Part shown: positions 59,352 to 64,000 of the stretch, piece by piece
Numbering within the stretch: position 1 is the first letter of the stretch
Layout: each line of letters starts with the position of its first letter
Origin: Bacteroidaceae bacterium
GTDB lineage: Bacteria > Bacteroidota > Bacteroidia > Bacteroidales > Bacteroidaceae
NCBI GenBank assembly: GCA_017524545.1
Contig: JAFXVN010000022.1
Coordinates: 25,473-89,472 of the forward strand
Length of the DNA stretch: 64,000 nucleotides
Reading direction: 5' to 3'
Program-made: the position numbers and the translations under genes
Notes under the pieces: model-generated
Seen by the model: the letters and a program-made list of their open reading frames with translations, nothing else
What the model was told of the DNA's origin: nothing
Databases searched by the model: none

Positions 59352-59619
59352 CGACTAATAATTCAAAATTCAAAATTCAAAATTATTACTTGTCGCTACC
59401 ATATTTATATTGTCAAGCTAAAAAGTAGCTCGGCGAAGTCCATGTCTCTCCTTGTTTCTTGTTCCTTTGTCACTATGCCGACCTATCATAAGCCTGCCGG
59501 AAGGAACGCGGCGCACCAACAATATCGAGGCTTATTGTAAAATCAGATTATTTCAAACTAATTCTTCATTCGTTTCTCATTTTGAATTTATAAAATTTGA
59601 ATTTTGAATTAAATAGTCG
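59352..59619. other. Intergenic region flanked by inverted A+T repeats
   Basis: The gap between the tRNA promoter and the next promoter is bordered by iterated aattcaaaatt units (59360-59386) and by inverted counterparts ttttgaattt/gaattttgaatt (59580-59610). Between them I see no convincing gene, promoter or RNA fold. Confidence 0.6.
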
Positions 59620-59627
59620 TATCTTTG
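59620..59627 (+). promoter_or_regulatory. Bacteroidetes -7 element TATCTTTG upstream of the structured RNA
   Basis: TATCTTTG lies 6-7 bases before the first paired base of the folded region that begins at 59633, and 311 bases before the Res start codon, implying a very long leader or a separate small RNA. Confidence 0.7.
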
Positions 59628-59632
59628 CAAGC

Positions 59633-59881
59633 GAATGGGCATAGTTTGCTCCAGAAAGGAGCAACAAACCCTCAGTGGAGGCGCCCATCAAAACTTATTG
59701 GTAAATATAGCGTTTGCTGTTTATTCGAATGTTCGAGAAACTTGGCGGTTGACAGAACAAATTGCGGATGGATAGAAAGCGGGCGTTCACGTATAGGCGT
59801 GGACGTTCAGCTCCGTCCTCGCAATTTAGGTTCCGCCAAGTACCTTCGAACATAGGATGTGAGACTTCGTCCACGTTTTTT
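59633..59881 (+). ncRNA. Candidate structured RNA / long regulatory leader
   Basis: Domain 1 is a three-way junction: atgggc (59635-59640) pairs gcccat (59683-59688) and encloses gctcc/ggagc (59648-59652/59658-59662) and ctc-agtg-gag (59671-59680). Domain 2 is a long nested stem: atgttcga/tcgaacat (59729-59736/59846-59853), acttggcgg/ccgccaagt (59740-59748/59833-59841), aaattgc/gcaattt (59759-59765/59821-59827), ggatgga/tccgtcc (59766-59772/59812-59818, one G.U) and cgttcacg/cgtggacg (59784-59791/59798-59805, one G.U). A ggatg/cgtcc hairpin and six T (59876-59881) follow. A second copy ggtacttggcgg (59885-59896) pairs perfectly over 12 bases with 59833-59844, competing with domain 2. No known family was recognised. 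It could be an attenuator for the downstream Res gene or a free small RNA. Confidence 0.6.
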
Positions 59882-59938
59882 GTTGGTACTTGGCGGAACT
59901 ATCGTATCAAAGAGCAACGCATAAACGAATATGCGCTT

Positions 59939-62900
59939 ATGCAAGCTAACAACGACAATCCCGTATTGAACAATCCGTACGAGGAACCGAGGTATTACTA
60001 TGATACCGACATGAACGGTAACATAGACTATCAAAACATTATCAATGGCCGACGTCCGTTTGGCTATGACGTACACATTGTGCCTAAAAAACGCGAAGAC
60101 CGCACCCTCTTCTCGCAAGGCGACTTCGTGTCTGCCGACCCCAATGCCGAGTTCATCAACATCATCCGCAGCGAGGTGAAGGCTTGGCGTGAGGCTGGTT
60201 ATCCCAAGGCTTCTCGCATTACAAAGGAGCTGCTTGACTTCTGGTTCAACAACAAAGAGCGCAAGGCAAACCTCAGCCTGTTCTTCTGCCAGCGTGAAGC
60301 TGTGGAGACGGCCGTCTGGCTGAACGAGATAGCAAAGCGCGACCCCAACACGGGCAACTACATCTTGAATCTCTTGGGCGAGCGACGCCATTCTGTCTCT
60401 GAAGATGATGCCTTCGTCCTGCCTCGAACTGCCTTCAAGATGGCAACAGGAACAGGCAAGACGGTGGTGATGGCTATGCTCATCCTCTACAACTACCTGA
60501 ACAAGCGGGCCAATCCGATGGACACACACTATGCCGACCACTTCCTGCTTTGTGCGCCAGGCATTACCATCCGCGACCGTTTGGGCGTGCTCCAATTGGA
60601 CTTCAGCAAGCGCAGCAACGACTATGAGCGAACCGACTATTACCATCAGCGCAATCTCATCCCCCGTCACTTCGAGAAGGAACTGGGCGGCCTGAACTCC
60701 TCCATCACCATCGTCAACTATCAGCAGTTCCTGCCCAGAACATTCTCCGGCAAGCACGCTTCGCCTTTGGACGGCAAACAGAAATGGAAGGACGGAGAAT
60801 TAGTGACGCAGAAGGACAAGGAGGACTACAGCGTGATGCTGAGCCGCATTTTGGAGAGAGGCGTGAAGGGCAAGCGTATTGTGGTTATCAACGACGAAGC
60901 CCACCATTGCTACCTGCCCCGTCAGGACAAGAACAAGGCATTGAGCGAGGACGAGAAGAACGACCTGAAGCAGGAGAACGAGACGGCTATGGTGTGGTAC
61001 GAAGGCCTGCGGCAGATGAAGCTCTTGGGCTATAAGCTTCAGCACGTCTATGACCTCTCGGCAACACCTTATTATCTGAAAGGCTCTGGCTATCCCGAGT
61101 ACTCGCTCTTCCCCTGGGTGGTGAGCGACTTCGGACTTGTGGATGCCATCGAGAGCGGCCTCGTGAAGATTCCCTACTTGCCTGCCTACGACAACACGCC
61201 CGACCTTGACGAGCCAAAGCTTCGCAACATATACGAGTGCATCAAGGACAAGCTGCCCAAGCGCGGTATGAAAGCACAGAAGAAGAAAGACAAGGAAGAC
61301 CAAGCTGCCGGCGTTGAGTCTGTTGCAGTTTTGTCTCAACAAGCCCCCAACCTCCCCACTCTCCTAAACACAGCCCTCGACCAGTTCGTGGAGGACTACA
61401 GGAACTACGACCGCGGACTGCGCGAAGCTTACGAGGCAATGGGTACGCTCTACACAGCTCCACCCGTGATGATTGTCGTCTGCAACAACACCACCGTCTC
61501 GTATGAAGTCTATCGGGAGATTGCTGGCTATCAGGATGGCGTGAACGAGGATGGCGAACCTCGCTACCGTCAGGGACGCTTCAATATCTTTTCCAACTAT
61601 GATGCGATGGGCTTGCCCAAAAACAAGTTCCCAACCCTGCTCATCGACTCCTCTGCCCTCGACGAGGCTTCAACCCGTATTGATGAAGCCTTCAAGAAAG
61701 CCTATGCCGAAGAGATAGAGGACTTCAAACACGAATATGCCAACCAGCACGGGGCAGGCTCTGCCGACAATCTGACGGATGCCGACATCTTGCGCGAAGT
61801 GGTGAACACGGTCGGCAAGCCCGGCAAGCTGGGGGGCGACATCAAGTGTGTTGTGAGCGTCTCGATGCTGACAGAAGGCTGGGATGCAAACACCGTCACT
61901 CATGTCTGCGGCATCCGCGCCTTCGGCTCTCAGTTGCTTTGCGAACAGGTCGTAGGTCGCGCCTTGCGTCGCCAAAGCTATGAGCTGACTGCCTACGACA
62001 AGCTTGGTCGCGAGATTGACCCTAAGGACATCTACAAATATAATAAGGAGAACGTGACCTATAAGTTCCCGCCTGAATATGCCCGCATCATCGGTGTGCC
62101 GTTCAACACCTTCAAGGGTGGTCAGACGGTAGTGACAAAGCCGCAGAAGCCCAAGGCCATCGTCCGTGCCCTGCCGGAACGACAAGCCACGATGGAGATT
62201 CGCTTCCCCGTGATTACAGGCTACCGCTCGGACAACATCGAAGGGACACTTACCGCCAAGTTCGAGGGTCTGCCCAAGTTCGTGCTCGACTTCAACAAGG
62301 TTCCGACGAAAACCGCCTTGCAAAGTGTCGTGAACGACAAGGAATATCTGTTGAAGACAGACTACATGGAGCTGCGCGACAGTCAGGTCGTCTATTACTT
62401 TGCCCACCTGATGATTCGTGAATACTATACCAGCCGCGAGCACGGCCAGCAGTTCCAAAAGTTTCCCGACATCAAGCATATTGTCGAGACGTGGTACAAC
62501 ACACAGCTGGAAATCCGTGGCGACGACGGCAGTCCGGAACAAAAGCGATTGGTAATGCTTTGGGACTATAAGGCTGTGCTGGCAAACATCATGGAAGGCG
62601 TGCACCAGGCTAACGCTAATCAAGAAACAATCTCTGCCGTCCTCAACTACTACAACCCGGAGGGAAGCACCGTCCATGTGTTCCGCCCAACGAACAGGAC
62701 CGTTTGGCCCACACAAAAGAGCCACATCAACTGTATCGTCTGCGAAGACAACAGTTGGCAGCAGATAGCGGCACAGACACTCGACCGAATGGATTGTGTT
62801 GTGGCTTGGGTTCGCAACCAATATCTTGGCCTGCGCATCCCTTATACCGTTGGCGACGAGAACAAGGAGTATCAGCCCACCTTCATCGTCAGGACAAAAG

Positions 62901-63097
62901 ACGTGAATCTGATTGTGGAATGTGAGGACTTCGACGGCGACAAGTCAGGCAACAAAGAAGCCAAGCGGCACTATCTGAAAGACTACTGGCTGCCCGCCGC
63001 CAACAATCTGAAGTCATACGGGCGATGGGATTTGCTGGAAGTAAGAGATATAGACCAATTAGGAAACCTCATCAACGAAAAAATCAAGCAACTATGA
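59939..63097 (+). CDS. Type III-like restriction subunit (Res), DEAD/DEAH helicase
   Basis: A 1052-residue superfamily 2 helicase of the type III Res kind. Walker A is MATGTGKT (168-175), the DEAH box is INDEAHHC (317-324), and the later motif [10 protein letters not shown]...[14 protein letters not shown] is clear. The C-terminal nuclease region aligns with relatives having PDF...EVKG, but here it reads YQPTFIVR (978-985) and IVECED (992-997), so the metal-binding Asp and catalytic Lys are replaced. Translocation should be intact; cleavage is doubtful. The start at 59939 (MQANNDNPV) was chosen because the frame upstream runs through the structured leader. It overlaps the Mod gene by 4 bases. 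Confidence 0.9.
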
Positions 63098-64000
63098 TAG
63101 ATAAGAATAGACCTGTTTCAAGTATTAAGCACGACAACAAACGTGCTGCCATTCCCGACAGTGCCCATCAGGGCGAAGAGAAGATGGCAATCAGCGGACA
63201 GCCGGAAGTGAGTGAGTATCAGGTGTTCCGCCATGAGTTTCAGCGCGGACGCGACCCAGAGCTCTATTGGCTCGGCAAGTACAAGAACGACGATGAGGAC
63301 AATCCCTCGCGTATGCCAAGCCTGCGGACAGACATCCGCAGTTTGTATAAGCACGAGGATGTCCGACCTGAAGCCATTATTGACAACCTCTACGAACTGC
63401 ACGAACACAAGAGCGAGAGTGCCAAGTTGCAGCTCGACCTCTTTGGCGACTGGTCAGACGGAGAGGAAGATGAGTTGGAACGTCTGGCAGGCTACTACAA
63501 GCATAACGACAACTGGCAGAACCGACTCATCCAAGGTGACAGTCTGTTGGTAATGAACTCCCTGCTGAACCGCGAGGGCATGAAAGGCCAAGTGCAATGC
63601 ATTTACTTCGACCCACCGTATGGTATCAAGTATGGCTCAAACTGGCAGATGAAGCTGAACAATAATAATGTAAAAGATGGTGCGGATGACAATATTTCCG
63701 GTGAGCCCGAAATGATAAAAGCATATAGAGATACATGGGAATTAGGTATTCACAGTTATCTTTCTTATATAAGAGATAGATTAGTGTTAGCTCGTGAGCT
63801 ACTTACAGAGAGCGGATCTTGTTTCATGCAGATAGGTATTGACAATCTCCATCTTGTAAGAAATATTATGGACGAAGTTTTTGGAAGTGAGAATTTCGTT
63901 AGTATAATTACATATAAAACCTCAGTAGGATTAGGAGCGACAACAATGGACAATGTTGCCAATTATCTTATATGGTATGCGAAAGATGTAGAAAATATGA
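63094..64000 (+). CDS. Site-specific adenine DNA-methyltransferase (Mod), partial
   Basis: The first 302 residues of the partner methyltransferase; the gene continues past the window. Its ATG overlaps the Res stop codon (ATGA). The catalytic motif [16 protein letters not shown] (DPPY at 173-176) is typical of beta-class N6-adenine methyltransferases of type III systems, where Mod also sets target recognition. The N-terminal 130 residues are charged and include a [13 protein letters not shown] block. From about 63655 onward the DNA becomes strikingly A+T rich with different codon use, although the frame stays open, suggesting a recombined central region. Confidence 0.9.

Follow-up and report, generated by a model that had tools for sequence, protein, structure and literature searches.

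The 64,000-nucleotide stretch of Bacteroidaceae DNA analysed here (the window) carries near its end two genes of a type III restriction-modification system, encoding a Res subunit and a Mod methyltransferase, the latter truncated by the window end. The initial annotation, made from the letters, had named this system, and the domain matches agree with it (Res, PF04851, 38.4 bits; methyltransferase, PADLOC MTase_III, 241.8 bits). The Res start at 59939 matches the methionine at which the homologous ORFs L082 and L091 begin. The Res frame is also open through the 3' part of the leader described below (59762-59938), with a TTG start at 59762 inside the RNA that yields 1111 aa in the ORF table; thus, the Res protein may be annotated automatically with an N-terminal extension that lies in the RNA. 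A divergent tRNA gene (Rfam RF00005; 59248-59333, minus strand) lies just upstream of the leader, and the restriction-modification operon may occupy a tRNA-linked island.

The leader element occupies positions 59633-59899, and a letter-by-letter check found the listed helices and both alternative pairings present. P1, P1a, P1b, the T run and the start-codon hairpin were read from the sequence, and the other features carry their evidence in the list. The TTTG and TATCTTTG elements are taken by us, from their consensus, to be a Bacteroidetes-type promoter.

59596-59627, plus strand: presumed Bacteroidetes-type promoter, with a -33-like TTTG at 59596-59599 and the -7 element TATCTTTG at 59620-59627
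59635-59701, plus strand: 5' module, a three-way junction of P1, P1a and P1b followed by the linker CUUAUUGG at 59694-59701 (fold z; similar modules in relatives)
59635-59640 with 59683-59688, plus strand: P1
59648-59652 with 59658-59662, plus strand: P1a
59670-59673 with 59678-59681, plus strand: P1b
59703-59722, plus strand: P2 hairpin, AGC GUUU GCU with outer pairs (sequence and alignment A3)
59723-59727 with 59765-59769, plus strand: pseudoknot PK1, five pairs, one of them G.U (strand-swap test)
59730-59736 with 59846-59852, plus strand: P3 (covariation)
59741-59748 with 59833-59840, plus strand: P4, segment 1 with segment 2 (covariation)
59759-59766 with 59820-59827, plus strand: P5, perfect 8 bp (swap test)
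59766-59772 with 59812-59818, plus strand: lower P6, one G.U
59784-59791 (strand A) with 59798-59805 (strand B), plus strand: upper P6, one G.U (swap test of A:B)
59798-59805 (strand B) with 59868-59875 (strand C), plus strand: alternative helix B:C, perfect 8 bp, which excludes upper P6
59855-59859 with 59868-59872, plus strand: weak local hairpin before the T run, five pairs
59876-59881, plus strand: run of six T directly after strand C
59830-59844 (segment 2) with 59885-59899 (segment 3), plus strand: alternative helix of 15 perfect pairs, which excludes P4
59919-59942, plus strand: start-codon hairpin of 6 bp, with the ATG at 59939-59941 in its 3' arm
59939-63097, plus strand: Res subunit of the type III restriction-modification system (PF04851)
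63025-64000, plus strand: type III (Mod) methyltransferase, truncated by the window end (PF01555)

The initial annotation had described a promoter element followed by a three-way junction and a five-helix nested stem with single G.U pairs in two helices. All of this was found: P1 begins at 59635, behind TATCTTTG at 59620-59627, the five helices are P3, P4, P5 and lower and upper P6, and the G.U pairs fall one each in lower and upper P6. Base 59766 is common to P5 and lower P6, so the two helices are not both complete at once. The proposed alternative that joins 59798-59805 to 59868-59875 forms a perfect helix of 8 bp with six T directly after it (59876-59881). The second proposed alternative is real, while its length, given as 12 bases, should be 15 perfect pairs (59830-59844 with 59885-59899). 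The overall description, a structured RNA whose mutually exclusive helices lie around a T run upstream of a type III operon, was borne out. The stretch 59633-59900 folds at -110.4 kcal/mol (z -7.3), and none of 200 dinucleotide-preserving shuffles folded as well; the 5' junction alone gave a fold z of -3.4, equalled by 1 of 200 shuffles.

No Rfam family matched over the element at gathering thresholds. With Rfam 15, the window and 20 diverse homologue loci together gave one tRNA and one rteR match, both outside the element, and a permissive scan of 59600-59960 returned a single match (E 4.4), to a microRNA model on the other strand. A known Rfam RNA was rejected on this ground.

Homologues were collected in stages. 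A DNA search of 61 genomes gave 12 places in 8 genomes, the window counted, and these early relatives had in common, as judged by eye, the promoter element, the 5' junction, the AGC-GUUU-GCU hairpin and helices that differ in sequence and still pair. A covariance model of the 5' part (R1, 10 sequences) matched at least 66 of 139 genus genomes and at least 42 of 301 family genomes (E <= 0.01). A model of the core (R2, 20 sequences) matched at least 139 of 393 order genomes (E <= 0.001) and at least 24 of 296 phylum genomes (E <= 0.01). A third model (R3), built on 31 sequences from the order and phylum matches of R2, matched at least 38 of 296 phylum genomes (E <= 0.001), nine of them outside the class; this is the same 296-genome sample as for R2, so the two counts are not independent. 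These counts are lower bounds, and the large searches scored 7-27 candidates per genome. The source genome itself has 15 model matches at E <= 0.1, and for 14 of these E is no higher than 3e-4. A leader family spread through the phylum, with this many copies in one genome, goes beyond the scale of the initial annotation. Among named public genomes, a degenerate DNA pattern found 45 stretches, all from Bacteroidales, Bacteroidaceae, Prevotellaceae or Prevotella, many of them in ruminant-gut assemblies.

Comparison of the homologues revealed a conserved structure. Alignment A2 was made from 20 sequences with plain MAFFT, and RNAalifold returned 29 pairs on it, 18 of them with two-sided changes. 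The named structure (P3, P4, lower and upper P6) was paired in 96.0% of the cells of A2, versus 80.4% after shuffling and 28-48% after sliding; further pair types, one of five measures, were matched by 74 of 500 shuffles. In A3, where 99 matches are aligned to the model, P3 was paired in 96.6% and P4 in 99.7% of cells, with two-sided changes at 8 of 8 and 7 of 7 pairs, respectively, and 618 two-sided cells were counted versus 149 in shuffles. The covariation expected among homologues is therefore strong, all 15 pairs of P3 and P4 having changed on both sides. Because A3 was fitted to P3 and P4, A2 is the cleaner test. The helix B:C, which is absent from the model, was paired in 91.6% of A3 cells in one register and in at most 67% in the other registers tried. 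In A3, AGC of P2 is conserved in more than 90% of rows and its partner GCU in 70-90% or more, and the helix sequences otherwise vary freely between homologues. These alignments indicate that the structure is conserved and is backed by covariation.

We also used a strand-swap test, in which each strand was scored with its own partner and with partners from other sequences. For this, 7 of the 99 A3 rows were removed (the antisense match L233, and L153, L122, L123, L103, L127 and L097), and the remaining 92 were thinned to 78 non-redundant sequences of less than 80% identity. Pairing with the own partner was stronger for P3 (z -32), P5 (z -29) and P4 (z -26), for both competing helices, B:C (z -13.9) and A:B (z -12.4), and for PK1 (own -7.2 versus swapped -4.1 kcal/mol, z -13.3). 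A weaker preference was found for the local hairpin ahead of the U run (z -6.6), and by eye none was seen before the T run in several homologues from other orders (L256, L261, L267). Controls in the same 78 sequences had no own-partner preference: A:C gave z -1.7, and J2/3 with the P4 3' strand gave z +2.3. Reading P4 as a kissing loop of two small hairpins was rejected, since of the two the 3' hairpin (GGY/RCC) has statistical backing (z 6.9) and the 5' hairpin (GAAA/UUUC) has none (z 0.4). Segment 2 was tested against the 75 nt after the U run, each locus being grouped by the search from which it came: in 52 Bacteroidales-type sequences its own downstream stretch paired at -22.9 versus -14.9 for permuted ones (z -16.9), and in the 25 others z was -4.0.

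The minimum-free-energy fold of the core contained P4 in 51 of the 52 Bacteroidales-type sequences; with 75 nt added, 26 of 52 folds traded P4 for segment 3 and 18 of 52 retained it, and this exchange occurred in 1 of the 25 other sequences, the groups again being set by the search of origin. The swap and refolding results together indicate that PK1 and B:C hold over the class-wide set, while segment 3 is mainly a Bacteroidales addition. When growing 5' prefixes of the window leader were folded, base 59836 left 59745 for 59893 as the transcript end moved from 59892 to 59900; the folding model predicts that segment 2 changes from P4 to segment 3 at a transcript end of about 59900. From the comparative evidence we conclude that two mutually exclusive pairings are evolutionarily kept, namely A:B versus B:C and, in Bacteroidales, P4 versus segment 2 with segment 3.

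The position of the element relative to promoter and gene is also regular. In 62 of 77 homologues the 200 nt upstream of the core contain the motif TAnnTTTG, versus 13 of 74 at 800-1000 nt upstream and 7 of 77 when shuffled. At least five T follow among the 8 nt after strand C in 70 of 78 homologues. A same-strand ORF of at least 60 aa, a permissive criterion, starts within 650 nt at 56 of 59 loci, often 40-80 nt after the U run. By its placement between a promoter motif and a same-strand gene, the element has the position of a putative cis-regulatory leader RNA.

The genes behind the leader copies are diverse. We classified 100 loci: from the R1 genus search the 82 best places, of which two at contig edges were left out, and from outside the genus the 21 best, of which one was left out for the same reason. 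At 68 of the 100, the first gene, or the second after a small ORF, is a restriction-modification or defence gene; for this classification one representative or a few were scanned in each BLAST cluster. These 68 comprise EcoRI-type methylases (25), MmeI-type IIG enzymes (10), PLD-helicases (9), N6/N4 methylases (6), the PADLOC type II methylase group (4), C5 methylases (4), type III Res (3), HsdR-N-like proteins (2) and five single loci (D12, N6_Mtase, MutH-like, N6/N4 and DUF4268/PDC-S11). The remaining loci have secreted, leucine-rich-repeat, lipoprotein, acyltransferase, TPR or unclassified genes, and four have no ORF. Among the 56 proteins behind order- and phylum-level matches, the window's included, the commonest Pfam domains were the TonB plug and CarbopepD_reg_2 (7 each), followed by N6_Mtase (5), MmeI_Mtase and CarboxypepD_reg (4 each), LRR_5, HSDR_N_2 and Response_reg (2 each) and DarT, ResIII, C5 and EcoRI methylases (one each). 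PADLOC returned many methylase models on the proteins behind these matches. The DarT-like ADP-ribosyltransferase domain is found behind the leader copy L213. In the source genome, the type III operon follows the window copy; by eye, the copy on C78 precedes an MmeI-type start and most others precede signal-peptide, lipoprotein or leucine-rich-repeat-like ORFs. An RNA special to type III systems is ruled out by the many cargo types. Thus, the res-gene context foreseen in the initial annotation was found and is one of many, since leaders also precede other restriction-modification and defence genes and secreted-protein, leucine-rich-repeat and TonB-receptor genes.

The association was also examined from the gene side. 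At 30 of 68 listed EcoRI-methylase places, a leader was present at 26 (21 by R2 and 5 by eye), and no R2 match was found at 30 recA control loci. The 21 R2 matches lie directly upstream, 15 at E <= 1.8e-12 and six at 0.0017-0.044; the five found by eye belong to a recognisable longer leader subtype, and four loci, L305 among them, had no leader. R1 and R2 were partly built from loci that were later counted, and L299 and L303 of these 30 are in the R2 alignment. Such a strong association with restriction-modification and defence genes would be expected if the RNA were a partner of the encoded defence proteins, as a guide, antitoxin or scaffold, like the RNA-containing abortive infection systems. 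However, the core precedes unrelated restriction-modification types, and also TonB receptors (7 of 56), leucine-rich-repeat proteins, response regulators and others, and we regard this explanation as very improbable.

Identity was compared separately for the 5' module and the core over 76 loci. Between copies in one genome, the 5' module was on average 0.75 identical even where the cargo differed (30 pairs), a figure that may be inflated because the loci were chosen by R1, which includes the module; it was 0.63-0.64 identical within a genus and 0.54-0.55 between genera, whatever the cargo. In contrast, the core was 0.75 identical between genera with the same cargo versus 0.65 within a genome with different cargo. 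A pair of source-genome loci found by R2, and therefore free of this bias, gives a direct example. L276 and L285 (on C22 and C24) are 89% identical over the 110 nt upstream, and their cores are 60% identical (the median over all core pairs is 62%). Their local alignment stops at the P2 boundary; promoter and 5' module are common to both, and the cores are unrelated. The L285 core resembles the restriction-linked subtype, is a weak match (E 0.08) without a recognisable 3' half, and is possibly a decayed leader. By these sequence comparisons, the 5' module tracks genome and genus, the core tracks cargo, and the module is exchangeable between cores.

Many copies per genome, a 5' module swapped between cores with identity stopping at the P2 boundary, and cores that follow cargo across genera could also be features of a repeated DNA or mobile element (REP- or MITE-like, an attachment site or a phage-borne cassette) with no function as RNA. 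We find this hardly credible, as the compensatory changes fit one strand with G.U allowed, and the copies are placed between promoter motif and gene; on the same grounds, the promoter-gene position and RNA-type compensation, a REP/MITE-type repeat was ruled against. By blastn, which diverged members would escape, the window leader had no match in phages or plasmids, and of two pattern scans over viral contigs one was empty and the other gave a single hit, which is coding-like and has no R2 match. A phage-, plasmid- or virus-borne element was dropped after these searches.

We favour, by a little better than an even chance, a cis-acting leader RNA that would control the following gene as an attenuator-like switch between mutually exclusive folds. 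By comparison among homologues, the pseudoknotted core consists of P2-P3-P4-P5-P6 and PK1, strand B of the innermost hairpin can pair instead with strand C just before the U run, and, in Bacteroidales, segment 3 beyond the U run can take up the 3' half of P4 together with the adjoining strands. If the core keeps B in A:B, C would be free and the polymerase would continue into the operon. Without such a hold by the core, C would pair with B or fold locally before the U run, and transcription would stop early. In read-through transcripts, segment 3 might open the core and thereby reset it or expose the start region. The 5' module would be the likeliest site for a host factor, because it follows genome and genus and not cargo. 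In support of this reading stand the covariation, the kept pairings, the position between promoter and U run, the refolding, the link to genes and the fold z of -7.3.

Several observations count against a simple form of the switch. In the window, the A:B hairpin (-19.1), which forms first, is computed to be stronger than B:C (-16.2). Over the homologues B:C is the stronger in 62 of 78, where the B and C stretches are longer than A, which biases toward B:C. The idea that G.U pairs weaken A:B so that C displaces its strand was dropped, as G.U makes up only 21% of A:B versus 16% of B:C. Furthermore, B:C crosses P3 to P5, so that a pseudoknot or an opened core is required, and the terminator-like local hairpin of the window has only 5 pairs; both count against a simple attenuator. 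B:C might take the part of the terminator hairpin, although it is a long-range helix. The segment 3 pairing hardly applies outside Bacteroidales, which counts against it as a general part. Four members of the secreted-protein subtype in the thinned set have just 3, 4, 4 and 4 T of 8 after C. Because of the stronger A:B, the crossing of P3-P5, the weak hairpin and this U-run-poor subtype, translation control and a released RNA stay live rivals of the attenuator-like switch.

The same core might act mainly on translation or mRNA stability, with lineage-specific outputs, the U run being incidental or of use to some subtypes alone. The low T counts of the secreted-protein subtype would fit, as would a further strand close to its start codon that by eye is complementary to C, and the window start codon lies inside the hairpin 59919-59942, similar hairpins being visible in the alignment near start codons of homologues. 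However, at least five T follow C in the great majority of homologues given above (70/78), and we consider this explanation unlikely, though it deserves attention. Within the attenuator-like switch, the subtype before secreted proteins, poor in its U run, may work at translation. A strand of the complementary kind, UGGNNCUG, is seen near the start codon in the subtype whose P2 reads CGAAGCGUUAUGCUCG (e.g., L109, L277, L278); by eye it seems to covary with C, and it is a possible translation-type output.

Alternatively, a free small RNA could be released at the U run and act in trans on other copies, mRNAs or protein, the gene being reached by read-through. The 15 model matches in the source genome, the promoter motif, the terminator-like end and the strong folding would suit such an RNA. 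We think it improbable, as the same-strand ORF often begins 40-80 nt past the U run, and segment 3, also past the U run, has a pairing conserved in Bacteroidales.

Transcription attenuators and riboswitches are 5' leaders with a folded core, mutually exclusive helices and a U run before the gene, and their output varies with lineage. The leader family resembles them in each of these respects: folded core, competing helices, U run before the gene and lineage-varying output. Unlike the known ones, it has no match in Rfam 15, its helix sequences are free, and it serves restriction-modification, defence and surface genes instead of one pathway. In A3, nothing resembling a ligand pocket stands out among the conserved unpaired bases, and few unpaired positions exceed 90% conservation, which is a weak argument against a riboswitch. 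In the main-text passages of the open-access literature searched, this leader RNA is not described, and as far as these searches reach it is apparently an unnamed class of cis-regulatory leader RNA.

RNA-based control of surface genes in Bacteroidota has precedents. The gene name attached to a colonisation-linked mRNA leader of Bacteroides is reportedly roc. PMC7366714 ties an mRNA leader to colonisation and describes DonS-type antisense RNAs in Bacteroides; the likeness to our family is RNA-based control of surface or colonisation genes, and the DonS-type RNAs differ in being antisense and 78-128 nt long. PINSR, a 188-bp repeat of Prevotella intermedia with 177 and 184 copies in two strains, is likewise a multi-copy intergenic sequence in Prevotella, is restricted to one Prevotella group, and in passages of PMC4755523 is described with neither an RNA structure nor an association with specific genes. 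Candidate structured RNAs computed from human microbiomes include Bacteroidetes motifs (PMC8040213), and the entries quoted are 38-132 bp; the words 'restriction' and 'methyltransferase' are absent from the main text of that paper, and overlap of leader fragments with its supplementary entries is possible. The RNA-controlled defence systems ToxI-ToxN (PMC8040213) and AbiF (PMC12373285) share with the leader a structured RNA tied to a defence gene; unlike them, one leader architecture serves many unrelated protein families, in defence and outside it. In passages of a study of Prevotella intermedia restriction-modification (PMC5608340), the leaders are CRISPR leaders, and it was set aside. A passage of PMC10994844 contained nothing relevant to the leader RNA.

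A wider reading, which we offer tentatively and consider rather unlikely as a whole, is a phylum-wide RNA switch common to restriction-modification or defence operons and surface-receptor genes, in which cargo and core travel together and the host's own promoter and 5' module take the place of the original ones. How acquired restriction-modification genes spare their host is a long-standing question that has been answered mainly with protein regulators. If the wider reading were true, a Bacteroidota cell could use one RNA mechanism to set both the surface targets open to phage and the enzymes that cut phage DNA, and the swapped host promoter and 5' module would plug an acquired restriction system into host control before cutting. 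A large RNA leader family before several restriction-modification types, surface receptors and leucine-rich-repeat proteins in a major gut and rumen phylum bears on the question of host protection, and it is testable at once in laboratory Bacteroidota.

Two further observations concern individual copies. L104 and L124 have the 5' module, P2 and strand C, lack most of the core, and lie before genes for secreted-type proteins. At L263, the rteR small-RNA match (38-120) lies near a leader copy, suggesting that this copy is carried on a conjugative element.
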